Assembly: GCA_000155435.1 (NCBI GenBank)
Contig: DS990261.1
Span: 983,987-1,047,986, forward strand
Reading direction: 5' to 3'
Length of the DNA stretch: 64,000 nucleotides
Origin: Clostridiales bacterium 1_7_47FAA
Lineage (GTDB): Bacteria; Bacillota; Clostridia; Lachnospirales; Lachnospiraceae
Within the stretch, counting starts at the first letter, position 1; each line of letters opens with the position of its first letter. Made by a program: the position numbers and the translations under genes. Under the pieces are notes generated by a model. It saw nothing but the letters and a program-made list of their open reading frames with translations, was not told the DNA's origin and made no database searches. Shown piece by piece: positions 30,996 through 64,000 of the stretch.

Positions 30996-31835
30996 ATGAT
31001 AAGAAAATGCAGTGACAAGGATTACCATGTGCTGATGCGCTATCTGCAACAGGAACCGGTGTACCACACATTCATCATAGCCGATATCACAAGATACGGG
31101 TTTGATAAGGATTACCAGACCGTGTACATGCAGGAGGCAAAGGAAGGGTGCTGCGGCATTTTCCTCAGGTACTATAATAATTTCATAGTGGCGGGGGATG
31201 CCGGAGCCATTGATTACCGGGAAGCAGGTTCGCTGGTCACCGGTGGGATTACCACGGTTATGGGACGGGCGGAGCTGGTAAGCCGCATATGTTCCGGTCT
31301 GGACCGGGATTATGAATATGGACAGAAGGTGCTGTACACTTATGAAGGGAAGGCGGGGACGGCAAATCCCATAGAAGAGCCCACAGAAGAATCCACAGAA
31401 GAATCACCCACAGAGGAGCTTCCCACAGAGGAACCGCCCGCCGTCCGGCCCGCCGGTCTTGACGATGTGGACCGGATTTATGATTTCCTTATGGGAATCC
31501 CTCAGCTAAGGCCGCTGTACACCCAGAAGGCCATGATTGAGAACCGTATCCGCAGCGGTGAGGGGATTCATGTCATCATGGAAAAGGATGGGAAGATCAT
31601 AGCCCATGGTAACAGCGCGGCCAGTGCGGACCTGACGGTGATGCTGGGAGGAATCGGGGTCAGTCCGGAATACCGCAGGAAAGGATATGCGTCCAGGATC
31701 ATGGAAGGGCTGTGCAGGGAGATTCAGAAGGGGAAACGCACCCCATGCATTTTTGCAGGGGACGAGGCGTCGAAAGCCCTGTGTGAAAAAGCAGGGTTTG
31801 TGGAATATGGAAGCTGGGGAACGGCCCAGTTCTAA
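30996..31835 (+). CDS. two-domain protein with C-terminal GNAT acetyltransferase
   Basis: Protein of about 279 residues. The N-terminal half (1-120) is a degenerate GNAT-like fold without a clear acetyl-CoA motif. A Glu/Pro/Thr linker made of repeats (IEEP, TEES, TEESP, TEELP, TEEPP; DNA 31371-31440) joins it to a C-terminal GNAT domain with the acetyl-CoA loop GIGVSPEYRRKGYAS. Substrate unknown. Start at 30996 has GAGGGA seven bases upstream; an in-frame ATG at 30930 lies over the promoter. First gene of the rightward operon. Confidence 0.75.
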   Translation: MIRKCSDKDYHVLMRYLQQEPVYHTFIIADITRYGFDKDYQTVYMQEAKEGCCGIFLRYYNNFIVAGDAGAIDYREAGSLVTGGITTVMGRAELVSRICSGLDRDYEYGQKVLYTYEGKAGTANPIEEPTEESTEESPTEELPTEEPPAVRPAGLDDVDRIYDFLMGIPQLRPLYTQKAMIENRIRSGEGIHVIMEKDGKIIAHGNSAASADLTVMLGGIGVSPEYRRKGYASRIMEGLCREIQKGKRTPCIFAGDEASKALCEKAGFVEYGSWGTAQF

Positions 31836-31866
31836 GAATCATACAAAATGGAGGGGAACCATACAT

Positions 31867-33276
31867 ATGAACAACAGACATTTATCCATCAAGGAAATTC
31901 TAGGTTATACGGTAGGATCCATCGGGGATTCCACCTGTTACAACTTCGTACTGTCATTTTTCTCATTTTTCATGATTACGGTGGCGGGGGTAAGCCCGGT
32001 CATCGCCGGGGCCATCATATCCATTGCCATTGCCTGGGACGCTGTCACGGACCCGGTTATCGGATACATGGTGGACCATTCAAAAAGCAGGAAGGGGAAG
32101 CGCAGGCCCTACATATTCAGATCCCTGATTCCCATGGGGGCGTCAATCATCTTCATGTTCATGAACGTGAACCTGCCCCAGACACAGAAAAACATATATT
32201 TCCTGGTCCTTGTCCTGGTATTCTGGACCGCCTATACCGCGTTTAATATACCGTACTATTCATTTGGTTCGGTGCTCACGGACATTGACAGCGAGCGGGT
32301 GAAGGTATCCGCCTTCCGGGAAGTCCTGGGCTATGTGGGGATATTCTGTGCAAGCTCGGTCCCCACCTTCCTGGTGGGCTGCCTGCTGAAAAAGGGCTTC
32401 GGCGACTCCCAGGCATGGCTTGCCGCCGCCGTGGTCTCCGCCGCCATCACGGTTGTCTCCATCCTTATCATGTGGAGATGCACCAAGGGAAAGGAACCCA
32501 TTGAGGAAAATGTGGACGTGCCCTCCATGCACGCCAGGGACTTCTTCCGGGAAATGTGGAGCCTTATGAAAATGCGGCCTTACCTTCTGGTCATTGCCTG
32601 CGCCCTGTTCACCAATGTCTACCTTACGCTGTTTAACTCAAACCTGCTGTACTACGTCACCTTTAACATGGGGATGGGCGAGACCCAGGCTTCCGCCATG
32701 TTTACGGCCATGAATATCGTATCCATTGCATTTATCCCATTCATCACCAAGGCTGTGGCCGTATTCACTAAGACCGGGGTGTTCGTGGCATGCACCATGT
32801 TCAGCGGAATCGTGATGATCCTGGCTAAATTCGTGGATATAAACAGCGTGGTGTCAGGCTGCATATACGTGGCCCTGGTGGGAGTGGGCACATGCGCCTA
32901 CTGGATGTGCGTATTTAACTTTTTATATGATGTCATTGACTATGACGAGTTTAAAAATGGTAAGAAGCGGGACGGCATCATCATGTCCTATTACTCCTTC
33001 CTGTTAAAGCTTGGGGGCGCGGTTGCAGCCGGGATACAGGGAATCCTGCTTCAGAAAAGCGGGTTCGACGCGACGCTGGCAGTCCAGCCTGAGGGCGTAA
33101 GGAGCATGATAAGCTCCCTGTTCACGGTCCTGCCCGGCATCTGCATGGTCCTTGCAAGCCTGGCAATCATCATCACACCGTTAAAGGACAGGAAGATGGA
33201 AGCCCTGAGGGCATCCCTGGAAAAAAAGAGAAATGGTGAAGAATATCCCATCGGGGAGTTCGAATCAATTCTATAG
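31867..33276 (+). CDS. GPH-family (glycoside-pentoside-hexuronide) cation symporter
   Basis: Membrane carrier of 469 residues with about 12 helices. The N-terminal ILGYTVGSIGDST and the loop IAWDAVTDPVIGYMVDHSKSR followed by GKRRPYI are typical of MelB/GPH transporters, as is the central FNIPYYSFGSVLTDI. Start at 31867 has GGAGGGGAA upstream and matches the family N-terminus. It sits between the acetyltransferase and two SAM-hydrolase genes, so a nucleoside or glycoside feeding that pathway is a plausible cargo (inference). Confidence 0.87.
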   Translation: MNNRHLSIKEILGYTVGSIGDSTCYNFVLSFFSFFMITVAGVSPVIAGAIISIAIAWDAVTDPVIGYMVDHSKSRKGKRRPYIFRSLIPMGASIIFMFMNVNLPQTQKNIYFLVLVLVFWTAYTAFNIPYYSFGSVLTDIDSERVKVSAFREVLGYVGIFCASSVPTFLVGCLLKKGFGDSQAWLAAAVVSAAITVVSILIMWRCTKGKEPIEENVDVPSMHARDFFREMWSLMKMRPYLLVIACALFTNVYLTLFNSNLLYYVTFNMGMGETQASAMFTAMNIVSIAFIPFITKAVAVFTKTGVFVACTMFSGIVMILAKFVDINSVVSGCIYVALVGVGTCAYWMCVFNFLYDVIDYDEFKNGKKRDGIIMSYYSFLLKLGGAVAAGIQGILLQKSGFDATLAVQPEGVRSMISSLFTVLPGICMVLASLAIIITPLKDRKMEALRASLEKKRNGEEYPIGEFESIL

Positions 33277-33314
33277 ATACTGCAGTAAGACAAATAAAAT
33301 GGAGGAATCAAGTT

Positions 33315-34172
33315 ATGAAAACAAAACCAGCAATTGTAATGCAGACCGATTTTACCAAAGACATATCCGTGTGTACCATGCAGGGCGTATGCATGATGGT
33401 GGACCCGGAGCTGAGGGTATTTGACAGCACCCACGATATCAGGAGCTTTGACACCTACCAGGCTTCCACATCCCTTAGCTTTGTGGTGGATTTCTGGCCT
33501 GCGGGAACCGTATTCGTATCCGTGGTTGACCCGGGGGTTGGCACCGGCAGGAGGGCCTGTGTGGCCAGGCTGAAAAACGGCAGCTATGTGGTGACGCCGG
33601 ATAATGGAAGCCTGACGCATTTAAAGAAGTTTTTCGGCATAGAGGAAGTGCGTGTCATAGACGAGACAAGGAACCGTCTCCAGAAGACAAAGAAGTGCCA
33701 TATATTCCACGGCAGGGACCTGTTCGCATACTGCGGCGCCAGGCTGGCCGCAGGAGTCATCACCTACGGGGAGGTGGGGGAGAGCTACCCGGTTGAGGAA
33801 ATCGTGGAACATGAGATCATCCCGTACCAGGCAGACGGAGGCAGGATATCCGGCATGATAGATGCCATTGACTATCACTTCGGACTTATCTGCACCAACA
33901 TACCGGCAGATGTATTTGAGGAAAATGGAATCAGCTTCGGCGATATGCTCCATGTGGCAATCCGTAACAGGAACAGGCAGGAACCTGTGTTTGAGGGAAA
34001 TGTAGCGTATGTGCCATCCTTCGGGTCGGTGGAAAAGGGGGAACCGCTGCTGATGACCAGCGAGACACTGCAGATACAGATAGCCACGAATTGTGTCAAC
34101 ATGGCTGAAGCATATGATATACATGAAGGTCCGGACTGGACCATGGAGATTGAGAAGGAGGTAAAGGCATGA
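33315..34172 (+). CDS. SAM hydroxide adenosyltransferase (SAM hydrolase), copy 1
   Basis: Protein of 285 residues in the SAM_HAT (formerly DUF62) family, related to fluorinase and chlorinase. Members split S-adenosylmethionine with water to adenosine and methionine. The triad is present as Asp72 and Arg79 (VVDPGVGTGRR) and His132 (FHGRDLFAY). TPDNGSLT and GESYPVEEI are further family stretches. It overlaps the second copy by ATGA, and adenosine deaminase lies downstream, so the adenosine can be removed. Which of the two copies is the active hydrolase cannot be told. Confidence 0.88.
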   Translation: MKTKPAIVMQTDFTKDISVCTMQGVCMMVDPELRVFDSTHDIRSFDTYQASTSLSFVVDFWPAGTVFVSVVDPGVGTGRRACVARLKNGSYVVTPDNGSLTHLKKFFGIEEVRVIDETRNRLQKTKKCHIFHGRDLFAYCGARLAAGVITYGEVGESYPVEEIVEHEIIPYQADGGRISGMIDAIDYHFGLICTNIPADVFEENGISFGDMLHVAIRNRNRQEPVFEGNVAYVPSFGSVEKGEPLLMTSETLQIQIATNCVNMAEAYDIHEGPDWTMEIEKEVKA

Positions 34173-35163: not shown

Positions 35164-35197
35164 TGACATGCAGCCATAAGGGAAGAGAGGGGAAGAT

Positions 35198-39190: not shown

Positions 39191-39262
39191 TACCCTTACG
39201 GAAGCGGCTGCCCTTACAGAAATGATTGCCCTTACGGAAGCGGCTGCCCTTTACGGAAGCGG
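39191..39262. repeat. four 18-bp tandem repeats
   Basis: Units begin at 39191, 39209, 39227 and 39245. Unit 3 is TGCCCTTACGGAAGCGGC; unit 2 is the most diverged and unit 4 has one inserted T. The array overlaps the last four codons of the MOP flippase gene on the minus strand and otherwise does not code. Confidence 0.85.
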
Positions 39263-40810
39263 TTTCCTTTTATGGAACAGCAGAAGCAGCCCCATATAGC
39301 AGAGGCACAGGAACAGGATATTCACTGCTGTCTCGACAAAGAGCGGCAGGCTGCCAAGGGAGGCTGCCACGCAGGAGAATGCCAGGTACATCCCAATGGA
39401 TATGAGAAGGAGGATGACCGGTTTCACAATCATGTTGGCCGTGTCCCAGTGGAAAGGGACCTGCCGTTTCACTGCCAGGAAACTCATAAGCGCCAGGGCC
39501 AGCTCGCTGGCCAGCATCCCCCAGAGATAACCCTGGATCCCGAACCTTGGAATGGCAAAAAGCACAAAAGCCAGCCGTATGACCATGGCCCAGACATTCT
39601 GGAAAAACGTGACCGAGGTTTTCCCAAGTCCGTTTAAGATGCTTCCCATGGTGGTGGCCAGATACATGAACGGGCACAGCCATGAGAGGATGGTGATGAA
39701 GGTGCCTGCATTCTGGTCATGGAACACGCCCACGCCCAGCTGGTTACCGAATAGGGTGAAGATGCCGATGCACAGGACCCCCATGTAGCAGCTGTAGCGC
39801 AGGGACATGGAAATCATGGAGGAGATACGTCCCTCGTTGCCGTCCGCCTGGGCCTGGGCAACCGTTGGAAGCAGCAGGACAGCCATGGAATTGGTGATGG
39901 CGGAGGGGAACAGGATGAACGGCAGGGCCATGCTGGTGAGCACGCCGTATATGGACAGGGCCTCTGAGTTGGTAAGGCCGGAACTCATCAGCTTGTTGGG
40001 AATCCAGATTGCCTCGGCGCTGCCAAGGACATTGAGTATCAGCCGGTTGCCCATCAGTGGAAGGGCCAGGGCCATCAGTGGGGCGGCTGTTTCACGGAAG
40101 GAGAGGGGGATTGCCTTCCTTATTTTATTACCCTCCGTTCCGGCAGGCGGGAAGAATCCAAGGCAGAATACGGTAAATGCAGCCGAAGCCATTTCACCGA
40201 TTAAATGACCGTATACCGCAAGGCTGACCGTGATCTCACGTCCTGAATCCAGCCAAACGCCGGCCATAAGGAACACGGCACCCATGCGGATGACCTGTTC
40301 CGCCACCTGGGAGAACGCGGGCACCCTGGCCTTCTGCATGCCATAATAATAACCGTTGATACAGGCGTGGAGGGCTGCAAAGGGCACGGACACGGCCATC
40401 ACGGGCAGGTAAGGGGCGCACCTTGGTTCTAACAGGAACTTTTCCGCTAGGAAACCGGCGTTGCCGTAAATGCCCCAGGCCAGGAGGAATGACATGCCCA
40501 TGGCAATGACCAGGCCTGTCTTGAACACGGCCTTGCCCCGGGCCTGGTTGGCGGCCACGTACTGGGACAGCGCGGTCTGGATGGAGCCTGCGCACACCGC
40601 GAAGCAGATGCTGAATATGGGATGTACCATATTGTAAATACCCAGCCCCTCTGCGCCAATGGTCCGGGACATGAATATACGGTAAAAAAATCCCAGGATA
40701 CGGCATATGAACCCCGTTGAGGTGAGGAGCAGTGTTCCTGTAATGAATGCCAGCTTCCGTGGGGAGAGGCGTTTGGATATGTTTGAAGATGGTGTTAAGG
40801 ACTCCTTCAT
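39251..40810 (-). CDS. MOP-superfamily polysaccharide/lipid flippase (SpoVB-like)
   Basis: Membrane protein of 519 residues with about 14 helices. The N-terminal GTLLLTSTGFICRILGFFYRIFMSRTIGAEGLGIYNM is characteristic of the MATE-like PST/SpoVB/MurJ-type flippases that move lipid-linked sugars across the membrane. LPTVAQAQADGN and the SILNGLGKTSVTF segment also fit. Role in spore cortex, capsule or peptidoglycan cannot be separated. Its stop codon lies in a tandem repeat array. Confidence 0.87.
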   Translation of the reverse strand: MKESLTPSSNISKRLSPRKLAFITGTLLLTSTGFICRILGFFYRIFMSRTIGAEGLGIYNMVHPIFSICFAVCAGSIQTALSQYVAANQARGKAVFKTGLVIAMGMSFLLAWGIYGNAGFLAEKFLLEPRCAPYLPVMAVSVPFAALHACINGYYYGMQKARVPAFSQVAEQVIRMGAVFLMAGVWLDSGREITVSLAVYGHLIGEMASAAFTVFCLGFFPPAGTEGNKIRKAIPLSFRETAAPLMALALPLMGNRLILNVLGSAEAIWIPNKLMSSGLTNSEALSIYGVLTSMALPFILFPSAITNSMAVLLLPTVAQAQADGNEGRISSMISMSLRYSCYMGVLCIGIFTLFGNQLGVGVFHDQNAGTFITILSWLCPFMYLATTMGSILNGLGKTSVTFFQNVWAMVIRLAFVLFAIPRFGIQGYLWGMLASELALALMSFLAVKRQVPFHWDTANMIVKPVILLLISIGMYLAFSCVAASLGSLPLFVETAVNILFLCLCYMGLLLLFHKRKPLP

Positions 40811-40999
40811 GAGAACTCCGGGAAATGGGAATTATTAAAAGTATATTGGGAGCGGGCGGGTTTTATGACATTCCAGGCCCCCTTCCCGGTACATTAAGAA
40901 ATCATAAGGACAGCATAAGAAAAGCATAAGGATAGCTAAAAAGGGCACGCCGCAGCATTAAGATACCATAAAAATAGTGTTAAAATATTGTTAATAATA

Positions 41000-41059
41000 G
41001 CCTGTTAAAATTTCTTAACAGGCATATTTTTTGTGCATAATATATAAAAAAGATAAAAT
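41000..41059 (+). promoter_or_regulatory. hairpin-T run and candidate promoter before dctQM
   Basis: This is the main content of the 384-base gap 40811-41194. GCCTGTTAA (41000-41008) pairs with TTAACAGGC (41015-41023), then six T (41027-41032). Overlapping its end, TTGTGC (41031-41036), a 17-bp spacer and TAAAAT (41054-41059) form a candidate promoter. TGACTTAGTCA, a short palindrome, lies at about 41128-41138. The rest is AT-rich without genes. Confidence 0.45.
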
Positions 41060-44969: not shown

Positions 44970-46700
44970 ATGTACCGTGTGATGATAGTTGATGATGAAC
45001 CGTTGATCCTGGCCGGGATTGCATCCCTGCTGAACTGGGAGGAGCACGGCTGTACCGTGGGGGCCAGGTGCGCCAACGGCCAGCAGGCCCTCAGGCAGAT
45101 GGAGGAACAGAAGCCGGATATCGTTATAACGGATATCAAGATGCCGGGCATGGACGGGATTGAGCTGATGAAGCAGGTCAAGGACAAGGGATGGGACGAT
45201 GTCATCTTCATCCTGCTGACCAACCTGGAAGAGTTCAGCCTGGCCCGCCAGGCCATGAGCCTTGGGGCAGTGGAATATTTGGTGAAGATGGAACTGACAG
45301 AGGATAAGCTGGCTGACAGCCTGAAGGCGGCCGTGGCCCGGCGTGAAATGAAACGCAAGGCAGAGGCGGCCGATACCGTCATGGCCCGGTCGGAGGAGGA
45401 CATACTGAAAGAGTATATAGAGGGACTTCTCATCGGGCGAGGGGAGATGGTCAATGGGGATGGTACGGGGATAGGACGCGATGTGGATATCCGGGCCGAT
45501 GTGGATACCTGGGGTAATGCAGATACCCGGGCGGATGCAGATACCCGGGTCAATGCAGATACCCGGGCCGATGCAGACCGGACGGCTTCTGGTACCATCC
45601 CTGTATTCCGGGAACCAATCATGGCCATCATCAGTTTCAACTATGGTTATGAGGGATTTTCCTCTGATTTCACAAGGGAGGACCAGAAGAAGGTAATCTC
45701 CTTTGCGGAAAATATCATCGGGCAGATGGTAAAAGGTTATTTTGACCACAGCTGCCTGGTGCGCAGGGAACTGATCAGCCTGGTGCTGGTGGTTTCGGCA
45801 GAGGGCATGCCGGATTACAGGGAGCAGATGCGAAGCCTTGGGGAGAAAATCATTTCCGTGGTAAAGGACTACTTCGAAGTGTCCGTGTCCGTACATGTCA
45901 GCACCAGGAAGGAAAGCCTTGAGGACTTTGGCGAGCTTCTGTATGAGGCCATGAGCGCGGCCAACCATTATTTTTACTGCTTTGCTGACCCGGTTGTGTT
46001 TTATTCGGCTGAGTGTGAGACAAGCGCCAGACATACGGCAAGCTTCCATATCGGATTCCTGAAAAAGGATTTGTCCCAGGCCGTTGCCATGAATGACAGC
46101 GCCGCCCTGGAAGGGATACTGGACCAGGTGGTATGCCTGTTAAAGGAAAATAACCCCTCCAGGCAGCAGGCCGTGAACGCCTGTGCAAATCTGTATTTTT
46201 TCCTGGCCTCCTTTTTTGAGGAAGGGGAGGAAGAGGATTTTCCCTATGAGGTCAATATCATGGAAAAACTGGGGAGGCTTGGGACCCTGGGCCAGATCAT
46301 ACAGTGGATTAACTGGTTTAAGGCAGCCGTTTCCTCCATTTTAGAACGCCGCAGGGACACGCGGGTGGATAAGATTGCGGAGATGGTGCGGGAATATGTG
46401 ATGGAGCACTATAAAGAGCGCATAACCCTGGGCCAGGTAGCGGAAGCTCTGAACATCAGCCAGGGATATTTAAGCACTGCCTTTAAGAAACAGTCCGGGG
46501 AATCATTTACCAGCTATGTGTCCGCCATTAAGATAGAAAAAGCCAAGGAGCTGATAGAAGGCCATCAGTATATGATGTATGAGATATCGGACCTGCTGGG
46601 CTTTGACACGCCCTTTTATTTCAGCAAGGTATTCAAGAAAGTCGCGGGGATTTCGCCGAAGGAGTACGAGGCCCAGTGCCTGAAGCAGAAAAAATTATAA
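44970..46700 (+). CDS. YesN-type response regulator with AraC DNA-binding domain
   Basis: Regulator of 576 residues. Receiver domain 1-125 with Asp55 as phosphorylation site (ITDIKMPG) and Asp8-Asp9. A middle region of about 300 residues contains a six-unit repeat (residues 171-205, units such as NADTRA and DADTRV). The C-terminal AraC domain (about 475-570) has two helix-turn-helix motifs (LGQVAEALNISQGYLSTAFK; YEISDLLGFDTPFYFSKVF). It should activate the adjacent ABC importer and lyase genes when the kinase senses a sugar. The repeat replaces a normally unremarkable linker and is probably surface-exposed. Confidence 0.92.
   Translation: MYRVMIVDDEPLILAGIASLLNWEEHGCTVGARCANGQQALRQMEEQKPDIVITDIKMPGMDGIELMKQVKDKGWDDVIFILLTNLEEFSLARQAMSLGAVEYLVKMELTEDKLADSLKAAVARREMKRKAEAADTVMARSEEDILKEYIEGLLIGRGEMVNGDGTGIGRDVDIRADVDTWGNADTRADADTRVNADTRADADRTASGTIPVFREPIMAIISFNYGYEGFSSDFTREDQKKVISFAENIIGQMVKGYFDHSCLVRRELISLVLVVSAEGMPDYREQMRSLGEKIISVVKDYFEVSVSVHVSTRKESLEDFGELLYEAMSAANHYFYCFADPVVFYSAECETSARHTASFHIGFLKKDLSQAVAMNDSAALEGILDQVVCLLKENNPSRQQAVNACANLYFFLASFFEEGEEEDFPYEVNIMEKLGRLGTLGQIIQWINWFKAAVSSILERRRDTRVDKIAEMVREYVMEHYKERITLGQVAEALNISQGYLSTAFKKQSGESFTSYVSAIKIEKAKELIEGHQYMMYEISDLLGFDTPFYFSKVFKKVAGISPKEYEAQCLKQKKL
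45480..45587 (+). repeat. in-frame 18-bp tandem repeat inside the response regulator
   Basis: Six units at 45480, 45498, 45516, 45534, 45552 and 45570. The best-conserved read NATGCAGATACCCGGGYN; the last is truncated by divergence. They encode DVDIRA, DVDTWG, NADTRA and similar hexapeptides, without disturbing the reading frame. Confidence 0.9.
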
Positions 46701-49255: not shown

Positions 49256-50083
49256 ATGGAGACAAGAACATTACATAGCAAAGTTATAATCTATACACTG
49301 CTGACCGTACTGGCAGTCCTGGTGGTGGTTCCCTTTTTCTGGATGCTTCTGGCTTCGGTCAAAACCAGCAACGAGGTGTTCAGCATTCCCATGCGGCTGT
49401 TCCCCAAAGAGTTCCAGTGGGGCAATTACCAGACAATCTGGGATAAGATTCCCCTCCTGACCTTTTTCAAGAACACATTCAAGATTGCGGTCCTGACAAC
49501 GCTTTTACAGGTATTTACCAGCTGTTTTGCGGCTTACGGCTTTTCAAAGGTGGAATTTAAGGGAAGGGATATCCTGTTCCTGATATCCGTGACCACCTTT
49601 GCAGTGCCTTGGCAGGCATATATGGTGCCTCAGTTTGCGCTGATTTCCAGGATGGGCCTTACGGACTCCCATCTGGGACTTATCCTGATGCAGGCATTTT
49701 CAGGGTTCGGCGTGTTCCTGATCCGCCAGTTCATGATCGGCGTTCCCAATGAACTGCTGGAGGCTGCCAGGATTGACGGGCTTTCCGAGTACGGCATATT
49801 CGCAAAGGTTGCCCTGCCCCTTGTGAAACCTGGTATTGCAACCCTGGTCATCTTTACTTTTGTAAATATATGGAATGACTTTATGGGACCGCTGATTTAT
49901 TTAAACAGCACCAGATTAAAGACCATCCAGCTGGGCATCAGGATGTTCATTTCCCAGTATGGCGCGGACTATGCGCTTATCATGGCGGCTTCGGTGTGCT
50001 CCCTGATTCCGGTCCTTGTTGTGTTCATGGTCTGCCAGAAATGGTTTGTGGAAGGAATCACGGCTGGAGGCGTAAAGGGCTGA
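49256..50083 (+). CDS. ABC sugar transporter permease (MalG type)
   Basis: Membrane permease of 275 residues with six helices and the EAA motif LLEAARIDGLSEYGIFAKVALPLVKPG. Second channel subunit of the importer. The stop codon overlaps the start of the lyase gene (TGATG), so transport and degradation genes are coupled. Confidence 0.92.
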   Translation: METRTLHSKVIIYTLLTVLAVLVVVPFFWMLLASVKTSNEVFSIPMRLFPKEFQWGNYQTIWDKIPLLTFFKNTFKIAVLTTLLQVFTSCFAAYGFSKVEFKGRDILFLISVTTFAVPWQAYMVPQFALISRMGLTDSHLGLILMQAFSGFGVFLIRQFMIGVPNELLEAARIDGLSEYGIFAKVALPLVKPGIATLVIFTFVNIWNDFMGPLIYLNSTRLKTIQLGIRMFISQYGADYALIMAASVCSLIPVLVVFMVCQKWFVEGITAGGVKG

Positions 50084-52347
50084 TGGAGAAGGAAATGGAT
50101 GAAAGGATAGCCATGGATGGAAGGACAGCCATGGATGGAAGGGCGGTCATGGATGGAAAGACGGCCATGGATGGAAAGACGGCCGTATACGGAGCCATAT
50201 CCGATGACTGGAAGTGGTGCAGCGAGTACTGCCAAAATTACTGGCCCGAGGAATGCGCCCATATCCTGCGGATTGCGGATGATGCGGTAAGGCAGAGGTT
50301 CGTGTTCGACCTGCCCTGGGACATGGAGCAGACCGTCAGGGCAGTGGAGTTCGGCGGAAATACGGGCGGGATTGACTGGCAATACATGCCGGACGGGGAT
50401 CCGGAATTCATCTACCAGTTTAACCGCCACCGTTACTGGATCTGTCTGGGCCAGGCCTATGCCATGACGGGGGATGAACGGTATGCGGAATGCTTTGCCA
50501 GCCAGATGGTTTCCTGGGTAGAGAAGAATCCCATCACGGAAGAGACAAAAAGGACCACATGGCGCAGCATCGAGGCTGGAATCCGGGGAGAGAACTGGGT
50601 GAAGGCCATGGAATACTTTAAGGACAGCCGGACCGTGACAGATGGGATAAAGGCCGTGTTCAGGAAGGGCCTATGGGAACATGGGAATTATCTCATGAAC
50701 CACCGGACGCCCTTCAGCGACAAGAGCAACTGGGGCGTGCTGGAAAGCCATGGACTGTTCTGCATCGGTGCCGCGCTTTTGCGGGAGTCCGGGCAGCCGG
50801 GACAGTCCGCACAGGAGGGACGGTCCGTACAGCCTGGACAGCCCATGCAGACGGAGCATCCCATCCAGCCATACAGCCCCGGTGAAGCCGCCCTCTATGT
50901 GGAGGAATCCCTGAAGCGCCTGGTGCGCCAACTGTCCATCCAGGTCATGGATGACGGGGTCCAGTGGGAACAGTCCCCTATGTATCACAACGAGGTCCTG
51001 CGCTGCGTGCTGGAGGTCCTGCGCATGGCACGCCTCCACGGCATCCGCGTGCCGGACATCCTGAAGGACAAGGCACGGGCCATGGCCCATGCGGACCTGG
51101 CCTGGATGAAACCGGACCATACCCAGCCCTGTAATGGGGACAGTGACAGGACGGACCTGAGGGATGTGTTCACACCCGCCGCATTCTTACTGAAGGACAA
51201 ACACCTGCGGTATGCCGGATATGGACGTCTTGACTTTGAAAGCGTGTGGGAACTGGGGCCGGAGGCCGCCATGGAATATGAAAGCATGAAGTCTAAGGAA
51301 CCGGAGCAGCTTTTTTCCGTCATGGAACACAGCGGGAACTGGTGCCTGCGCTCCGGCTGGCATGGGGACAGCGACTACCTGCATTTCAAGTGCGGTTCCC
51401 TGGGCGGCGGACACGGACATTTTGACAAGCTTCACATCGACCTGTCCGTCCACGGGGAGGATGTGCTCATTGATTCCGGCAGATACACCTATGTGGACGG
51501 GGGCCTGCGGCGGCAGCTCAAATCCTCCTGCGCCCATAATGTCCCGGTGGTGGACTGGCAGGAATACACACAGTGCACCGGCTCCTGGGATGTAAAGGGG
51601 ACGGCCTGCGCCACGGGACAGCAGTGGTGCAGGAAGGGGGAATTTACCTTCCTTCAGGGAACCCACCTGGGATACCTGCCCGCTGGAGTCCTGGTGAACC
51701 GCCGGATTATTTCCATCGGCACCAGGATCCATGTTATCGTGGACGGGTTCTATGGACAGGGAACCCATGTGTGCAGCCAGATTTTCCATCTGAACCCGGC
51801 TGGAACCACGGAAATTAAGGGGAATACCTTCCTTTATCATGGAAGGGCTGCCGAGGCCGTGTTTACCGTGCTCACCCCCGGCGCTGCCCTGGAACTTGAG
51901 GATACCCCGGTTTCCTTCCATTACAACCAACTGGAACAGGGACCATGCGTCAGCATTTCCAGGGAAAACAGACTGTTTACTTCCATGGTGACCGTTATTA
52001 CAGGTTACGGCGGGGAAGATGGGGAACGGTGCGACATCCGGCGCGTGCCTGTCATTGCCCCGGTTACCGGGCGCCAGCTTGGGGACGGGGAGGCGGAGGC
52101 GGTCCGCATCCGGGAAGGAGGACATTCCTGGCTGGTGGTCATCAACCACGGGGAGACAGGGGCTGACAGCGAATACATCGGCGCTGACGGCTGCTACGGC
52201 CTGGGGCGCGTGATGGCCTGCGATGAAGCGGGATATGGGGAACCGGCCCAGGGGACGTATATCCCAGGAACCCCAGGAACTTCAGGAATCCCGGGAACTT
52301 CAGGAACCCCAGGGACCGCCCCGCTGATGACCGTGCTTCAATGGTAG
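50083..52347 (+). CDS. heparinase II/III-type polysaccharide lyase
   Basis: Enzyme of 754 residues with an N-terminal alpha/alpha toroid (about 40-380) and a C-terminal heparinase II/III beta-sandwich domain. The signature is SLGGGHGHFDKLHIDLSVHG followed by DSGRYTY, with the catalytic His/Tyr region. Family members cut uronic-acid glycosaminoglycans or alginate by elimination. No signal peptide, so it acts on imported oligosaccharides. Three repeat tracts interrupt it: residues 5-34 (MDGKTA-type units), about 237-266 (QPGQPM-type) and a PGT-rich tract near residue 727-745. Start at 50083 overlaps the permease stop and has GGAGG upstream. Exact PL family not assigned. Confidence 0.82.
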   Translation: MEKEMDERIAMDGRTAMDGRAVMDGKTAMDGKTAVYGAISDDWKWCSEYCQNYWPEECAHILRIADDAVRQRFVFDLPWDMEQTVRAVEFGGNTGGIDWQYMPDGDPEFIYQFNRHRYWICLGQAYAMTGDERYAECFASQMVSWVEKNPITEETKRTTWRSIEAGIRGENWVKAMEYFKDSRTVTDGIKAVFRKGLWEHGNYLMNHRTPFSDKSNWGVLESHGLFCIGAALLRESGQPGQSAQEGRSVQPGQPMQTEHPIQPYSPGEAALYVEESLKRLVRQLSIQVMDDGVQWEQSPMYHNEVLRCVLEVLRMARLHGIRVPDILKDKARAMAHADLAWMKPDHTQPCNGDSDRTDLRDVFTPAAFLLKDKHLRYAGYGRLDFESVWELGPEAAMEYESMKSKEPEQLFSVMEHSGNWCLRSGWHGDSDYLHFKCGSLGGGHGHFDKLHIDLSVHGEDVLIDSGRYTYVDGGLRRQLKSSCAHNVPVVDWQEYTQCTGSWDVKGTACATGQQWCRKGEFTFLQGTHLGYLPAGVLVNRRIISIGTRIHVIVDGFYGQGTHVCSQIFHLNPAGTTEIKGNTFLYHGRAAEAVFTVLTPGAALELEDTPVSFHYNQLEQGPCVSISRENRLFTSMVTVITGYGGEDGERCDIRRVPVIAPVTGRQLGDGEAEAVRIREGGHSWLVVINHGETGADSEYIGADGCYGLGRVMACDEAGYGEPAQGTYIPGTPGTSGIPGTSGTPGTAPLMTVLQW
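50095..50184 (+). repeat. five in-frame 18-bp repeats at the lyase N-terminus
   Basis: Units at 50095, 50113, 50131, 50149 and 50167, like ATGGATGGAAAGACGGCC. Each encodes MDxxxx and carries its own in-frame ATG, preceded by a purine-rich stretch from the unit before. Confidence 0.92.
50791..50880 (+). repeat. degenerate in-frame 18-bp repeats inside the lyase
   Basis: About five hexapeptide units such as QEGRSV, QPGQPM and QTEHPI between two helices of the toroid domain. The sequence is unrelated to the repeat at 50095. Confidence 0.75.
52261..52317 (+). repeat. in-frame 9-bp repeats near the lyase C-terminus
   Basis: Units of CCAGGAACC/TCAGGAACC type, encoding PGT, SGI and SGT tripeptides in a collagen-like tract just before the stop. 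Confidence 0.85.
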
Positions 52348-58232: not shown

Positions 58233-59575
58233 GATTGCAGATAAAAAGATATGGGGCCGCGGCCCTGGCAGGAATCATGGCAGGCAGCCTGGCGCTGACA
58301 GGCTGCGGCAGTTATGCGTCAAGCAGTGAACTGAGGCAGCAGGCGGAAGCCTCCCTTTTGGACCAGGCGGACAGCGGGAGCGGGTCCGGCCAGGGCATCC
58401 AGGTGGAACCGGACAGCGGGACGGCGGACAGTGGGACACCGGACAATCCGGGAACACGGGATGGCCGGGGGACGCCGGACGGCCAGGATGACCGGACCGG
58501 AGGGCCGTCAGCTGAAACCATCCGTGTGGAGACCGGGCTTACAACCGCCCCCATGCCTGAATTTGAGTCCGTGAAGGACGATGTATATGTCAAGACAGAG
58601 GATGGGGGAAGCGTCCGTCTGCGCTCATCCTGCGACACGGGCAGCGATGCCAACATCGTGACATACGCCAGTTCCGGCACCAGGCTTACACGTACCGGAA
58701 AGGGAAGTGAATGGACCAGGATTGATTACAACGGTACCCCGGCCTACATATCATCTGCATATATCACCACGGACGTGCCGGAGACAACGGCTGCACCGGC
58801 TGGCGGCGTGTGTGTGGACAGCGGGGAAGTGACGCTGAACCCGTCCTGGAAGTATGCGGAGTTCTCCAAAATCAACACAGGGGCTGCCGTCCTGTACCGT
58901 TCAGAGGCAGGGACCAGGAAGAACATCACAATCTGCGTCAACGCGGGCCATGGCACCAAGGGCGGTTCATCCGTGAAGACCCTGTGCCATCCCGACGGCA
59001 CGCCCAAGGTAACAGGCGGCACCACTGGCGCAGGCGCCACATCCGCGGCAGCCGTGTCCGGCGGCATGACCTTTGCGGACGGCACGGCGGAGAGCAAGGT
59101 AACCCTTGCCATGGCCAGGATCTTGAAGGATAAGCTTCTGGCGGCAGGCTATGATGTGCTGATGATACGTGAAAATGATGACGTCCAGCTGGATAACGTG
59201 GCAAGGACCGTGATTGCCAACAATGCCAGCGACTGCCACATTGCCCTTCACTGGGATTCCACCACCAGCAACAAGGGGGCATTTTACATGAGCGTGCCCA
59301 ATGTGGAGTCCTACAGGAACATGGAGCCGGTCAAATCCCACTGGCAGCAGCACAATGCGCTGGGGGAAAGCCTGGTGGCAGGCCTGAAAGGCGCCGGGGT
59401 AAAGATTTTCTCAGGCGGTTCCATGGCCATGGACCTGACCCAGACCTCCTATTCCACTGTCCCGTCCGTGGATATCGAGCTGGGGGATAAGGCATCCGAC
59501 CATTCACAGGCAACCCTGAACACGCTGGCAGACGGCCTGCTGGCCGGAATCAACCAGTATTTTGGGCAATCATAG
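58229..59575 (+). CDS. SH3b-containing N-acetylmuramoyl-L-alanine amidase lipoprotein
   Basis: Lipoprotein of 448 residues: lipobox LTGC (Cys29), a Gly/Asp/Pro/Thr-rich repeat linker (residues about 61-92), a bacterial SH3 domain (about 112-185) and an Amidase_3 catalytic domain (about 230-445). Zinc and catalytic residues appear in VNAGHG, the later Glu-rich part of the fold, HWDST and VDIELGD. It cleaves the amide between muramic acid and the stem peptide. Translational coupling to mnmA is by overlap only; no functional link is known. Confidence 0.88.
58409..58500 (+). repeat. degenerate in-frame 18-bp repeats in the amidase linker
   Basis: About five hexapeptide units, [18 protein letters not shown] and GRGTPD among them, between the lipid anchor and the SH3 domain. 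Confidence 0.75.
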
Positions 59576-60516: not shown

Positions 60517-60550
60517 TACCGGCCAGTTATAAAAAAGAGTAAAAAAGTTA

Positions 60551-60608
60551 TGCCAGCTACTACACAAAACACGAAATTTAGTGTATAATGCAGTAGTTGG
60601 CATTTTTT
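60551..60608 (+). terminator. terminator overlapping the tRNA-Ser promoter
   Basis: TGCCAGCTACTACA (60551-60564) pairs with TGCAGTAGTTGGCA (60589-60602) through G-U or A-C changes, then six T. The loop contains TATAAT (60584-60589), with TACACA 17 bp upstream (60561-60566) as -35, which would be the tRNA promoter. Confidence 0.7.
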
Positions 60609-60697
60609 GGAGGAGTACCCAAGTGGCTGAAGGGTCTGGCTTCGAACACCAGTAGGTCGGTAGCACCGGCGCGAGGGTTCAAATCCCTCCTCCTCCG
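60609..60697 (+). tRNA. tRNA-Ser(CGA)
   Basis: A cloverleaf of 89 bases. The acceptor GGAGGAG pairs with CTCCTCC, with discriminator G97. A long variable arm with CGGT/ACCG marks a serine tRNA. The anticodon loop is TTCGAAC, so the anticodon is CGA. The T arm is GAGGG-TTCAAAT-CCCTC. The anticodon stem has a C31-A39 mismatch. CCA is not encoded. Starts directly after the T-run of the upstream terminator. Confidence 0.93.
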
Positions 60698-60780
60698 TTT
60701 GAAACGCCCGGCGCGGGTATGGGCATCCATTCCTGCTAAGCGTACTTTAGACCGTCAGTTCATGGATTGGCGGTATTTTC

Positions 60781-60951
60781 ATGTCTGAAACCAAGGTGTT
60801 CGTGTCCGAAACTCAGGTTTTCATATCTGAACCCCAGGTGTTCGTGTCCGAAACTCAGGTTTTCATGTCCACTGACCCCGGTTCCGGGGGATTTTCAAAA
60901 ATATCCAAATTAAATGGGACTTTTTCCGGCATTTTACAGTCTAATAGATAG
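60781..60951 (+). CDS. possible 56-residue repeat peptide
   Basis: ATG at 60781 opens a frame of 56 codons. Its first half is 7-residue repeats (SETKVFV, SETQVFI, SEPQVFV, SETQVFM) from a 21-bp DNA repeat. The alternating polar/hydrophobic pattern would suit beta strands. No good ribosome site is seen, so it may be untranslated repeat DNA. Confidence 0.3.
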   Translation: MSETKVFVSETQVFISEPQVFVSETQVFMSTDPGSGGFSKISKLNGTFSGILQSNR

Positions 60952-60999
60952 AAGCATGGAAAACATGTGACTGTACGTACAGAAAAGAGAGGAACAGCA

Positions 61000-61131: not shown

Positions 61132-61178
61132 CCATCCCGGGATAAGGACAGATGCTGTATATGTACAGCCCTGATGAA

Positions 61179-61343
61179 TCAGGACTGCATGCCGCGCTGG
61201 GGGCATTCTTCCGGTATGGAAGGGGTTGCGTTATCAGCTCCCGGAAGGTCAATCTCCGGTATGTCCCCATCTCCATAGGTGCTGCTGTTCCGGCCCGGAA
61301 GTTCCATTGGTTCCATAGGTCTTTGGGTCTGTCCTGCATCCAT
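61179..61343 (-). CDS. possible 54-residue acidic proline-rich protein
   Basis: A minus-strand frame starting six bases after the stop of the next small gene, with AAAGGGTG about eight bases upstream. Rich in Pro, Glu and Met, with no recognised family. Spacing and ribosome site favour a real small gene; length and composition leave doubt. Confidence 0.35.
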   Translation of the reverse strand: MDAGQTQRPMEPMELPGRNSSTYGDGDIPEIDLPGADNATPSIPEECPQRGMQS

Positions 61344-61349
61344 GTTCCA

Positions 61350-61541
61350 TCACCCTTTCGTAAACATGTTCTCCACATAGTTGCGCATTTCCTGGCGGCT
61401 TTCAATGGTCCTGGCTCCATCCACAATCCGCTCCTGTTCCGGTTTGCTCAGTCCGGCAAAGCGGTTCAGGGCATCGGAGTGCATGGCCAGTTCCATGGTA
61501 AAGCCGATGGGCAGTTCATCGTTGTTAATCTTATTTATCAT
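61350..61541 (-). CDS. conserved small protein (hypothetical)
   Basis: Sixty-three residues beginning MINKINNDELPIGFTMEL and containing ALNRFAGLSKPEQERIVDGA, with a helical pattern and ending MFTKG. Similar short proteins are common in Lachnospiraceae (from memory); function unknown. GAGGTG six bases before the ATG at 61541 decides the start over earlier GTG/ATG codons at 61550 and 61547. Confidence 0.65.
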   Translation of the reverse strand: MINKINNDELPIGFTMELAMHSDALNRFAGLSKPEQERIVDGARTIESRQEMRNYVENMFTKG

Positions 61542-61641
61542 GTTCATCACCTCACGGTTAGTATGGAACCGGGACAGTAAAAATATGCGCGTACATTATA
61601 ATATGAATTCCTGTTTTCAAATACGACCCAGTGCATGACAG

Positions 61642-61671
61642 AAAGCCGTGACCACATACAGTCACGGCTTT
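61642..61671. terminator. terminator downstream of rsiV
   Basis: AAAGCCGTGAC (61642-61652) pairs perfectly with GTCACGGCTTT (61661-61671), 8-base loop. The T-run is short in both directions. Confidence 0.65.
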
Positions 61672-61732
61672 ATCAGGGTTTTCCTTATCAGGATTTATTT
61701 TCCTTATAAGAATTTACTTTTCTTTTGATGAT

Positions 61733-62620
61733 TTAAAATGTTCCGGTTACCGAAGCAGGGATCGTGAAATCAACCGCCCCCATATAACCGGGAGCCACCT
61801 CATATTCTGCAAATGCTATCACAAGCTCGCCCCTGTCATTGAAATAGTAGCTCTCGTCTCCCGTCAGACCCTTGAAGTCATCCTCCGGCATCTCGGAATT
61901 GTAGAAATAAATGATATTGTCGTCAGCCGCCATCTGGTCGGTCATCTGCTGTTTGATGTTATTGCTGACAGCCTCCAGCATACCCGGCTTATCCTTAAGA
62001 AGTTCCTTGAGGGGGATTACACTGCCTGTGGATTTATCAATGGTAAATATCTTTACAAACTGGGTGCCGCTGGCCATGGTAAGGGTGGTGTCAATCCGGA
62101 TGCACAGGTAGCGGTCCGTGTCGGTGACCACCTTGTAGCTGGAATCCAGTCCATAATGCCCCTGTCCGTTATCCTTGGCAACCTCCTCCTCATACATGGC
62201 AATCAGCTCATTGGCATAATCCTCAATGGACTTGTTGGCAGGGACCTGAGTGTCCTGTCCATTGTCCAGGGTGACCTGGGGGACCTTTATGTCTGCCTGT
62301 AGGTTTCCGCGGCTGTCCTCAAAGGTGCGGAAGGTAACCACTTTGGCGATGGAACCGATGAGGGGAATCTGTTCCATTGCATTGGCAGTGGTGGGGTTTA
62401 AATTGGCAAGTAGTGTTATGGTCAGCATGGCTGCAACGGCTGCGCCGCCTGTCTTCTTAAAAGATTTCATGATAATCACGCCTTTCTGTTCTTTTTTTGC
62501 CTGGGCAATGCCTGCTTTCATGCGCTGCCTGGCTTCTTCCGGTACGGGGATGTGTTCATATTCCTGCTTTAACATATCAATCTGTTTCGATTCGTCCTGT
62601 TTTAAATGTTCCTGCTTCAT
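61733..62620 (-). CDS. rsiV: RsiV-type anti-sigma factor
   Basis: Membrane anti-sigma protein of about 295 residues. The N-terminal 50 residues are cytoplasmic (VPEEARQRMKAGIAQAKKEQKG), one helix follows (AAVAAMLTITLLANL), and the extracellular part has the DUF4163/DUF3298 domains known from RsiV, which binds lysozyme in Bacillus and Clostridioides. It would hold SigV inactive until lysozyme triggers its cleavage. Start at 62620 is preferred because AGGAG is then eight bases upstream; the ATG at 62626 is too close. Confidence 0.85.
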   Translation of the reverse strand: MKQEHLKQDESKQIDMLKQEYEHIPVPEEARQRMKAGIAQAKKEQKGVIIMKSFKKTGGAAVAAMLTITLLANLNPTTANAMEQIPLIGSIAKVVTFRTFEDSRGNLQADIKVPQVTLDNGQDTQVPANKSIEDYANELIAMYEEEVAKDNGQGHYGLDSSYKVVTDTDRYLCIRIDTTLTMASGTQFVKIFTIDKSTGSVIPLKELLKDKPGMLEAVSNNIKQQMTDQMAADDNIIYFYNSEMPEDDFKGLTGDESYYFNDRGELVIAFAEYEVAPGYMGAVDFTIPASVTGTF

Positions 62621-62635
62621 GGACATGGCTCCTTT

Positions 62636-63139
62636 CTAAGACTTATCCGGTATTTCCCTGTAATGTTCTGCCTCCAGGTTCAGTCTGAGTTTTTTTAAGG
62701 ACCTGTATAATCTGGCTTTTACTGTGTTTAAATTGTCGCCTACAATATCCGCAATATCCTCCAACTTTAAATCTTCAAAGTACCGCAGCAGGATTATGGT
62801 CCTGCTCTTGTCATCCAGCTGGTTTAATACAGTCCGCAGCTCCAGGTCCCGGTACTGGTCCTCCACCGGTATCTCCGGCAGTTCCTCTGTGGTTGTTTCC
62901 TTCTTTTTCCTGCGCAGCATATCCAGGGCGGTGTTGACTACAATCCTGTAAATCCATGTGGACAGGTAGTCTTTATTCCTGACCTTTCTGCAGTCCCTGA
63001 TTGCCCGGTAGGCGCTTTCCTGGACCACATCCAGGGCATCATCTTCATTGCGCATATAGCTATATGCAAGGCGGTAATAACGCTCATAGTTATCAGTGAG
63101 GATCTGTTCCGTCTCCGCCGTATTGTTCTGAAAGCCCAT
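62636..63139 (-). CDS. sigV: ECF sigma factor, SigV-like
   Basis: Sigma factor of 167 residues. Region 2 at about 18-85 (YYRLAYSYMRNEDDALDVVQESAYRAI; LSTWIYRIVVNTALDMLRR), region 4 at about 105-160 (LDDKSRTIILLRYFEDLKLEDIADI; NTVKARLYRSLKKLR). It lies 15 bases before its anti-sigma gene. Start at 63139 has AGGAGG nine bases upstream, better than the ATG at 63148. An ECF-type promoter upstream suggests it activates itself. Confidence 0.9.
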   Translation of the reverse strand: MGFQNNTAETEQILTDNYERYYRLAYSYMRNEDDALDVVQESAYRAIRDCRKVRNKDYLSTWIYRIVVNTALDMLRRKKKETTTEELPEIPVEDQYRDLELRTVLNQLDDKSRTIILLRYFEDLKLEDIADIVGDNLNTVKARLYRSLKKLRLNLEAEHYREIPDKS

Positions 63140-63175
63140 GCAATGCATCCTCCTTTCATTTGGTTCTGTCTGTTA

Positions 63176-63202
63176 GACGTTTGAGGATTCTGTAAAGTTG
63201 CA
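63176..63202 (-). promoter_or_regulatory. ECF-type promoter of sigV-rsiV
   Basis: On the minus strand TGCAAC (63202-63197), a 17-bp spacer and CGTC (63179-63176), close to the SigV/SigM-group consensus. It fits autoregulation. Confidence 0.6.
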
Positions 63203-63213
63203 TCCATTTAAAC

Positions 63214-63241
63214 ATTTTATCGTAAGAAATCAGAAATGCAA
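63214..63241 (-). promoter_or_regulatory. second, sigma-A-type promoter of sigV-rsiV
   Basis: On the minus strand TTGCAT (63241-63236), a 16-bp spacer and TAAAAT (63219-63214), giving a basal transcript. Confidence 0.45.
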
Positions 63242-63247
63242 CATTCA

Positions 63248-63276
63248 TTGTAATTTAATGTGAAAAATGCTATATT
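63248..63276 (+). promoter_or_regulatory. promoter of the repeat-rich gene
   Basis: TTGTAA (63248-63253), a 17-bp spacer and TATATT (63271-63276), divergent from sigV. Confidence 0.5.
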
Positions 63277-63309
63277 GTTAAAAGGAATCTTATGAAAGGT
63301 GTACGGTAG

Positions 63310-64000
63310 ATGAGGGAAGATTATACAAAGGATATGGATTTAAATAAGGAAATGGAAGATATCCGCCAGGTACCCCTGGAGCCGGGGAACAGGACTGCTT
63401 CGGGAAAGGAAAGACCCAGGGAAAGGCCGGTCGGCGCTTCTTATACAGGCGGGACGCCGGCGCGGCGCAGCAGCGCGGGCGGTATGGATGAAGGCCCGGG
63501 CGGCATGCCAGGACGGCGCAGCAGCACGGGCGGTATGGATGAAGGAATGGGCCGTGTGCCGGGACGGCGCAGCAGCGCGGGCAGTACGGATGAAGGTCAG
63601 GGCGGCGTGTCAGGACGGCGCAGCAGCGCGGGCAGTATGGATGAAGGTCTGGGCCGTGTGCCGCGCCAGCGCAGCAGTGTGAATGTCACGGATGGCAGCG
63701 GGGCACAGGCTGGAACCCAGGGACATGGACGTTCCAGGGCAAAAGGCGGCAGGGGAGCAGAGGAGGTCCGCTCCAGGCAGGGAAGACCGGCCCCGGCAGG
63801 GGAAGCGGGCAGGAGACGGGAACCAGGGCTGACGGAAACCAGGACGCCCAAATCCAGGAATCAGCGGACCGGACAGCCGCCGCTTGAATCCGCGCTGCGT
63901 GAAGTCACGCTCCACCCGGTTGACGGGCCAGGGGAATCCTACCCGCATCCGGCAGGAAAGGCAGCCCGGGGCAGCGGTGGCAGAAGGAAAGGTGTTCCTT
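63310..64000 (+). CDS. Gly/Arg/Ser-rich repeat protein (3' end outside window)
   Basis: The frame from ATG 63310 stays open to the window end, 230 codons. AAAGGTG lies eight bases upstream. The visible part is hydrophilic and basic with no membrane segment: a 48-residue lead-in, then about five 17-residue repeats (PGRRSSAGSTDEGQGGV type), then a Arg/Gly/Pro-rich stretch. It looks like the disordered cytoplasmic tail of a larger, perhaps membrane, protein. Function cannot be given. Confidence 0.7.
   Translation, partial: MREDYTKDMDLNKEMEDIRQVPLEPGNRTASGKERPRERPVGASYTGGTPARRSSAGGMDEGPGGMPGRRSSTGGMDEGMGRVPGRRSSAGSTDEGQGGVSGRRSSAGSMDEGLGRVPRQRSSVNVTDGSGAQAGTQGHGRSRAKGGRGAEEVRSRQGRPAPAGEAGRRREPGLTETRTPKSRNQRTGQPPLESALREVTLHPVDGPGESYPHPAGKAARGSGGRRKGVP
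63457..63711 (+). repeat. five in-frame 51-bp tandem repeats
   Basis: Units begin at 63457, 63508, 63559, 63610 and 63661, each holding a CGGCGCAGCAGC core (RRSS) and GATGAAGG (DEG). The last unit decays after its first half. Confidence 0.88.

Follow-up and report, generated by a model that had tools for sequence, protein, structure and literature searches.

Short tandem repeats in genes of Clostridiales bacterium 1_7_47FAA probably reflect general tandem duplication filtered by the reading frame

The window considered here, the whole stretch of 64,000 nucleotides analysed from Clostridiales bacterium 1_7_47FAA (genome G000, placed near Enterocloster citroniae, G003), contains numerous short tandem arrays within genes, and raises the question of whether they stem from a process making 18-bp repeats, from the spread of one element, or from something more general. 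An earlier note had listed nine arrays in about 33 kb (31371..63711), and all nine were recovered at the same places by Tandem Repeats Finder, far above chance, with an 18-bp period in five of them as had been claimed (the array at 52261 can also be read as 9 bp). Seven of the nine lie within genes called by a hexamer gene finder, and all seven of these have periods that are multiples of three; the description of the arrays as lying inside ordinary genes stands for these seven, but the array at 39193 is mostly behind a stop codon and that at 60776 is intergenic. Three further intergenic arrays absent from the earlier list (40895, 40969, and 61679) were detected, none with a period that is a multiple of three (Table 1). 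With head-to-tail units and periods of 9-102 bp, the nine arrays correspond to intragenic minisatellites or VNTR-type repeats, and not to phase-variable contingency loci with units of 1-6 bp, the in-gene arrays being frame-keeping.

Table 1. Tandem arrays of the window and their genomic context.
Array	Position	Strand	Context
12 bp x 3.1 (Tandem Repeats Finder)	31369..31405	+	GNAT acetyltransferase gene 30930-31835
18 bp x ~4	39193..39277	-	3' end of Polysacc_synt/MatE gene 39251-40810
18 bp x 5.1 (also 36 x 2.6)	45486..45577	+	response regulator, between domains
18 bp x 5.0, MDGRTA-like	50095..50184	+	N terminus of heparinase II/III-like lyase
18 bp x 3.1	50786..50841	+	heparinase II/III-like lyase, loop splitting the Hepar_II_III_N match
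9 x 6.1 / 18 x 2.7, proline-glycine-rich	52261..52317	+	close to lyase C terminus
15 bp x 2.5	58408..58445	+	SH3_3/Amidase_3 protein, N-terminal side of SH3_3
21 x 4.4 / 42 x 2.2	60776..60870	none	intergenic, behind tRNA-Ser 60608-60698
51 x 4.2 / 102 x 2.2	63456..63677	+	Amidase_2 protein, N-terminal part
11/22 bp at 40895 and 25 bp at 40969	40895..41018	none	intergenic, score >=50
19 bp x 2.2	61679..61722	none	intergenic, score >=50

The concentration of arrays in this stretch is not particular to it. The 33-kb stretch holds 12 arrays versus 5.3 expected (post hoc p 0.008), and none scoring at least 50 was found in the 31 kb that precede it. Over the complete window the count is 12 (score at least 50) versus 10.3 expected from the contig, and 19 of 1207 sliding 33-kb windows of the contig show an equal or higher density, which rules out a local hot spot. 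Across 1.24 Mb of the same contig (C106:1-1,240,000, about 19% of the genome), 199 arrays were detected, compared with 11 in a single equally long sequence from an order-5 Markov model; counting only arrays wholly within genes, there were 100 in the real genes, whereas three rounds of codon shuffling left 6, 5, and 2. Such arrays are carried by 82 of the 968 genes called in the contig. Over this 1.24 Mb, the nine arrays of the window are thus a sample of a genome-wide state, and while the kind of feature is already known, its density is notable.

The most consistent property of these arrays is their relation to the reading frame. The frame keeping reported by the earlier note inside clear genes, which is that of VNTR-type repeats, extends from the window (7/7) to the contig, where 93 of 100 in-gene periods are multiples of three versus 19 of 70 intergenic ones (p 6.7e-20), and to the sampled relatives, with 56/61 in genes versus 15/36 between them (p 1.3e-7). 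Expressed as density, arrays with multiple-of-three periods are as frequent in genes (8.9 per 100 kb) as between them (9.9 per 100 kb; p 0.60). Other periods occur at 0.67 per 100 kb in genes versus 26.7 between them, a 40-fold in-gene depletion (p 3.6e-34), to be read with the point that gene calling relied on a home-made finder scoring hexamers in open frames, under which a frame-breaking array may itself shift a broken gene to the edge or intergenic class. The gene and intergenic counts exclude 29 edge arrays (10 of them multiples of three). The pattern was stable at scores of 50, 60, and 80, with or without a copy minimum and with two methods of choosing the period; over those settings the largest ratio between the two multiple-of-three densities was 1.3.

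Within proteins, the arrays are found mostly away from known domains. Where the protein has a Pfam match over the cut-off, the array falls outside the domains in 24 of 29 cases (a count based on best stretches), compared with about 10.7 expected, so that the placement in linkers and termini proposed earlier holds for the majority and fails for the array at 50786, which occupies a loop inside Hepar_II_III_N. Examples are the GNAT gene, with its array at residues 147-159 and its GNAT domain at 196-294, and the response regulator, in which the array (residues 173-202) falls between the REC domain (4-115) and the AraC-type HTH (479-568). In the SH3_3/Amidase_3 protein the N terminus ahead of the array resembles, by eye, a lipoprotein signal, and the linker preceding EIIA holds an array in each of three PTS transporters, different from one to the next. 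In L056:10793-12160, the first 135 residues gave no Pfam match. Array residues are enriched in G, Q, T, A, S, E, and P and depleted in L, I, and F. According to a review, coding repeats are poor in some hydrophobic residues, prokaryotic ones are rich in S, G, A, and P, and coding repeats generally avoid frameshifts (PMC3899988); the present analysis adds a baseline from non-coding arrays of the same contig, in which the multiple-of-three density is equal.

Comparison with relatives was possible for eight of the nine window arrays, and the same array was found in none of the relatives compared. The flippase (Polysacc_synt/MatE) locus is the most informative, as the first unit of its array is formed by the final codons and stop of the gene itself, with the remaining copies lying behind that stop; the unit is present once in citroniae, which supports birth in place. 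In that alignment, which leaves out rows G011, G005, and G008 (three of six relatives' rows being valid), neither G004 nor G012 has an array. In the response regulator, the 30 array residues are replaced in G002, G011, and G012 by 5, 14, and 21 residues, with at most five identical in tblastn. For the lyase, its start read as ATG 50083, tblastn shows G002 with 18 residues in place of the N-terminal array, two of them identical, and G011 has a shorter and different N terminus. The 19 residues of the array at 50786 correspond to none in G012, 1 in G010, 14 in G011 (1 identical), and 15 in G002 (6 identical), and the C-terminal array (52261) is absent from G011, G002, G010, and more distant aligned homologues. 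Linkers orthologous to the SH3_3/Amidase_3 array have at most 5 of 13 residues in common with it (tblastn). Behind the same tRNA-Ser, citroniae, G011, clostridioforme, and G004 have different sequence and lack the 60776 array. The Amidase_2 gene (63310-64623) extends past the window end, and its citroniae orthologue carries two other arrays in its N-terminal part (18 x 3.7 and 24 x 3.2). For the GNAT array, 16 other genus genomes gave a single weak partial match (30%), so that it was not polarised. The frame-based alignments omit G012 for the response regulator, G012 and G005 for the lyase, and G003, G004, G016, and G002 for the amidase; the tblastn comparison covers these three again, its 48 lines representing fewer than 48 genomes as some occur twice. 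Outside the window, two of six in-gene arrays matched in relatives were well conserved (10/10 and 11/14 residues), and therefore not all arrays are young.

These observations bear on the suggestion that the arrays are selected functional repeats whose variable copy number tunes enzymes and regulators. Array-bearing genes do include regulators, cell-wall enzymes, and PTS transporters, and there is precedent in E. coli tolA, likewise an in-frame coding tandem repeat, for which a strain-variable copy number that alters stress tolerance is reported (PMC3477136). However, the equal density of frame-keeping arrays in and between genes makes overall positive selection unnecessary, and the compared relatives do not share the arrays of the window, leaving tuning as an unlikely general explanation.

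The 18-bp period itself calls for separate consideration, as the earlier note had envisaged a process that repeatedly creates 18-bp repeats. A dedicated maker of this kind would account for the five window arrays and for the 25 of 100 in-gene contig arrays that share this period, the commonest single value. It is nevertheless very improbable, because intergenic DNA has 18 bp in only 2 of 70 arrays and peaks instead at 14 bp (11/70) and 16 bp (10/70). The relatives, in turn, favour 15 over 18 bp in genes (19 versus 11 of 61), with 18 bp in 3/36 intergenic arrays, and perfect non-coding duplications range over 10-18 bp. Among multiple-of-three periods only, the share of 18 bp in genes (25/93) does not differ significantly from that between genes (2/19; p 0.15). 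The scan of period and codon phase that had been proposed, run on 1.24 Mb, thus bore out an excess of frame-keeping periods in genes and not one of 18 bp in intergenic DNA; of the envisaged process, repeated independent creation survives and 18-bp specificity does not. A point against the general reading given below is that 18 bp is the commonest of the 93 frame-keeping in-gene periods of the contig. Regarding size, perfect non-coding duplications spread across 10-18 bp and then drop, and near-perfect ones fall off gradually from 10 bp. A sharp ceiling for all arrays was rejected, since 18 of 70 intergenic periods (and 42 of 100 in-gene ones) exceed 20 bp and the drop is limited to perfect duplications.

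The units were also compared with each other, using 28 of the 29 period-18 arrays (one was left out for a consensus of another length). Their mean best rotation identity over 378 pairs was 0.515, close to the 0.483-0.490 of five shuffles, largely in agreement with the earlier statement that the units are unrelated; among the best eight of the 378 pairs, two exceeded the shuffled maximum of 0.722. These two pairs (0.889, from arrays less than 1 kb apart, and 0.778), together with a 71% match of the 50095 array at C106:125620, are what a single mobile or dispersed repeat element could claim in its favour, but the near-shuffled similarity of the 28 units is not that of a dispersed family, and the flippase array begins with the end of its own gene, so that spread of one element is hardly credible. 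Repeated independent birth of arrays from unrelated local sequence is supported instead.

As to how such births occur, perfect two-copy duplications were pooled from C106 and the relatives, and 24 of the 65 show at least three bases of extra match, of the kind that slippage at short direct repeats may leave. Blunt duplication at equal base frequencies would give 3.3, an excess to which decayed third copies possibly contribute. Staggered-break duplication by Ku-dependent end joining, which needs no pre-existing repeat and would suit the other 41 duplications with 0-2 bases of extra match, is the least likely source, as a search that was positive in the Bacillus subtilis control gave no Ku match in G000 and a match in one genus genome out of 17. 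A missing RecJ or MutS was likewise discarded as a cause, both genes being over the cut-off in G000. With these two proteins present and Ku absent, the density is not explained by any repair defect examined. The recJ gene of G000 forms a single open frame (605 codons) whose linker is longer, and no array scoring at least 30 was found in it apart from two-copy 9-mers.

Taken together, the arrays are probably the outcome of general, sequence-unspecific short tandem duplication, with the reading frame and the tolerance of the protein acting as filters and 18 bp as one of the allowed sizes. Head-to-tail copies, usually of 10-20 bp, would arise anywhere in the genome, most likely by slipped-strand mispairing during replication, and further copies may be added later to the initial duplications. 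Selection would purge nearly all frame-breaking arrays from genes, which we infer to be the origin of the frame bias, and frame-keeping arrays would persist where their residues are tolerated, in linkers, tails, behind signal peptides, and in some loops, most of them presumably being neutral. The 18-bp class would then be one frame-keeping size surviving the filter.

Comparable in-gene arrays in many genes have been described in Legionella pneumophila, where 7 of 26 intragenic tandem repeats are reported to vary between strains (PMC2639597). Those 26 were kept of 95 in one genome with other software and criteria, compared with 100 in 1.24 Mb here, and many belonged to TPR proteins or to other proteins of known repeat type, whereas the present units are shorter and mostly outside known domains. 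Among the open-licence papers listed for Enterocloster or Lachnospiraceae, no title referred to such arrays. If the density observed here holds genome-wide, one genome would provide hundreds of arrays with a built-in intergenic baseline, by which the spectrum of repeat birth could be separated from reading-frame selection. From the equal frame-keeping density in the two compartments it would follow that genes tolerate frame-keeping inserts almost as readily as intergenic DNA does, mostly at linkers, which is relevant to protein engineering and to the reading of strain-typing repeats. It also advises caution, as a striking period such as 18 may stem from the filter and not from the maker. More tentatively, Enterocloster and some other Lachnospiraceae might possess an unusually active short duplication, its fresh perfect products rarely exceeding about 18-20 bp, that continually seeds tolerant linkers proteome-wide; if this were true, these bacteria would offer a natural setting in which to study how protein repeats originate out of unique sequence.

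Tandem Repeats Finder (TRF) recovered all nine arrays that the earlier note had described in the window and bore out a period of 18 bp in five of them. A simple hexamer gene finder placed seven within genes, one across a gene end and one between genes; the seven in-gene arrays keep the frame, as had been claimed, with a period that is a multiple of three in every case. Three additional intergenic arrays with a score of at least 50 have periods that are not multiples of three. The three arrays of the heparinase-like lyase gene are mutually unrelated, and two or three arrays occur in 14 of the 82 array-bearing genes of C106, the contig that carries the window. At the N terminus of the lyase, every 18-bp unit contains an AAGGA-like purine stretch, about 5 bases and an in-frame ATG; judged by eye, this array could supply several start sites for one protein.

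Coordinates of the arrays and related features
Feature	Location	Host or region
Array	window 31369	GNAT gene
Array	window 39193	flippase (Polysacc_synt/MatE) gene end
Array	window 45486	response regulator
Arrays	window 50095, 50786, 52261	heparinase-like lyase
Array	window 58408	SH3_3/Amidase_3 protein
Array	window 60776	behind tRNA-Ser
Array	window 63456	Amidase_2 protein
Extra arrays	window 40895, 40969, 61679	intergenic
Lyase gene	window 49996-52347	
18-bp units	window 50083-50184	lyase N terminus
PTS transporters	L011:8028-10277, L044:11074-13038, L043:5090-7096	array before EIIA
24-bp and 18-bp arrays, citroniae	L235:5375-5597	same Amidase_2 region as the 51-bp array of the window's species

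The window arrays are above chance, and their abundance is not local to the window. C106 belongs to a 6.55-Mb draft genome with an estimated contamination of 4.56%, of which the sample covered about 19% (1,240,000 bases, 8,640 of them N). It held 199 arrays with a score of at least 50, or 16.0 per 100 kb, versus 11 arrays in one order-5 Markov control of the same size; on contig C107, a further 80 kb gave 11.2 per 100 kb. The nearest relatives in the named collection, by MnmA identity, were [Clostridium] citroniae WAL-17108 (90%; now Enterocloster citroniae, Lachnospiraceae) and Clostridium sp. 1001271st1_H5 (88%), followed by a MAG and clostridioforme AGR2157 (87%) and asparagiforme (83%). 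In relatives' samples, picked by position and in part around orthologues of window genes, the same measure gave 12.5 per 100 kb in citroniae (240 kb), 10.0 in G004 (220 kb), 8.9 in G011 (280 kb), 6.0 in asparagiforme (420 kb) and 10.2 in G005 and G012 jointly (39 kb, 4 arrays). Across 80 mnmA loci from many genera the density was 6.7 (98 arrays in 1.45 Mb), and in 250 kb of E. coli MG1655 it was 2.4. Three loci from other Lachnospiraceae MAGs (L108, L121 and L135), each of only 7-16 kb, reached 56.5, 58.4 and 44.2. The array-bearing genes of C106 lie on the + strand in 74 of 82 cases versus 785 of all 968 called genes (p 0.027).

Periods that are multiples of three accounted for 93/100 in-gene versus 19/70 intergenic arrays in the C106 sample (p 6.7e-20; 29 edge arrays, 10 with such a period, excluded) and for 56/61 versus 15/36 in the sampled relatives (p 1.3e-7), while three codon-shuffled gene sets yielded 6, 5 and 2 in-gene arrays. 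The density of multiple-of-three arrays was similar in genes and intergenic DNA (8.9 and 9.9 per 100 kb, p 0.60), and that of other periods was 0.67 versus 26.7 (p 3.6e-34), although a frame-breaking array can drop its own surroundings from the gene class because genes were defined via open frames. This pattern held at scores of 50, 60 and 80, whether or not at least 2.8 copies were required, and under two period-choice methods; the two multiple-of-three densities differed at most by a ratio of 1.3 (4.0 versus 5.2), with intergenic counts as low as 6. On a plain reading, genes reject frame-breaking arrays and are about as tolerant of frame-keeping ones as intergenic DNA is. We infer, as is customary, that selection causes the frame bias.

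The earlier note also considered the 18-bp units unrelated and the arrays inside clear genes confined to linkers or termini, and both statements hold in large part. Among 28 units of 18 bp, mean similarity was near the shuffled level (0.515 versus 0.483-0.490), but 2 of 378 pairs exceeded the shuffled maximum. The GNAT gene had a weak match in only 1 of 16 other genus genomes, and therefore eight of the nine window arrays could be compared with relatives. At the flippase site, among the three usable of six relatives, the unit with the last codons and stop is single-copy in citroniae, and no array was found in G004 or G012. The response-regulator linker has 30 residues here versus 5, 14 and 21 in G002, G011 and G012; the three lyase inserts are absent or different among aligned relatives, and orthologous SH3_3/Amidase_3 linkers share at most 5 of 13 residues. 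The tRNA-Ser gene that precedes the intergenic array is followed by different DNA in citroniae, G011, clostridioforme and G004, and the array region had no match in any fetched relative at E 1e-3. In the Amidase_2 region, the citroniae orthologue, the sole comparison, carries two other arrays (18 x 3.7 and 24 x 3.2). Outside the window, six in-gene arrays in four genes had matches, putatively orthologous, in fetched relatives: two are strongly conserved (10/10 and 11/14 residues), one long array is partly so (53/179 identical) and three are weakly so (5/9, 5/22 and 4/13). Since some of these are conserved, not every array is young, and some two-copy arrays may be no duplications at all.

Placement was assessed for 29 arrays whose host proteins, 24 in all, scored above the Pfam cut-off, considering best stretches only: five window proteins and 19 of 30 drawn at random from 62 eligible of 76 genes, the other 11, which lacked such a match, being uninformative. 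Twenty-four arrays lay outside domains, two inside and two partly inside, and the lyase array at 50786, which departs from the claim, lies in a loop that separates two stretches of a single domain. If placed at random, about 18.3 of the 29 would overlap a domain. Array residues are enriched in G, Q, T, A, S, E and P and depleted in L, I and F. Three PTS transporters of C106 carry arrays with differing units, all in the linker preceding EIIA. Copy number might tune the response regulator or the lyase, as the earlier note suggested.

In-frame coding repeats with units divisible by three are well documented, as in Legionella (PMC2639597) and tolA (PMC3477136), and this kind of array is already known; open-licence papers on the genus or family, judged by title, offered nothing about such arrays. 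Strand slippage and recombination are presented as the two standard models for tandem repeats in a review (PMC3899988). Among perfect two-copy duplications, 24 of 65 had at least three bases of extra match versus 3.3 expected for blunt joins with equal base use, to which decayed third copies may contribute; slippage as the maker of the arrays has limited support. Ku was not found in the window's genome, RecJ and MutS both were, and these three provided no cause for the high density. Near its linker, where the window's species is longer, recJ is split over at least two frames in L281 (citroniae) and L282 (G009), which could reflect sequencing error or a broken gene.

A process creating specifically 18-bp repeats, as the earlier note proposed, is not borne out. 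Period 18 was found in 25/100 in-gene versus 2/70 intergenic arrays of C106 (p 6.8e-5), and among multiple-of-three periods in 25/93 versus 2/19 (p 0.15). Intergenic arrays there favor periods 14 (11 arrays), 16 (10), 15 (7) and 17 (5), with 18 of 70 above 20, and in genes of the sampled relatives period 15 (19/61) exceeds 18 (11/61). Perfect non-coding duplications in C106 numbered 5, 3, 4, 2, 3, 5, 4, 5 and 3 at periods 10 to 18 and 1, 0, 0 and 1 at 19 to 22; pooled with the relatives, they were 43 at 10-18, 3 at 19-27 and 2 at 28-60. With 10% mismatch allowed, the non-coding counts for periods 12 to 20 fall gradually (12, 6, 7, 7, 7, 4, 1, 2 and 2). The drop above 18 is confined to perfect copies. 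Taken together, these periods show that the maker produces a wide spread, of which the reading frame leaves 12, 15, 18, 21, 24 and so on.
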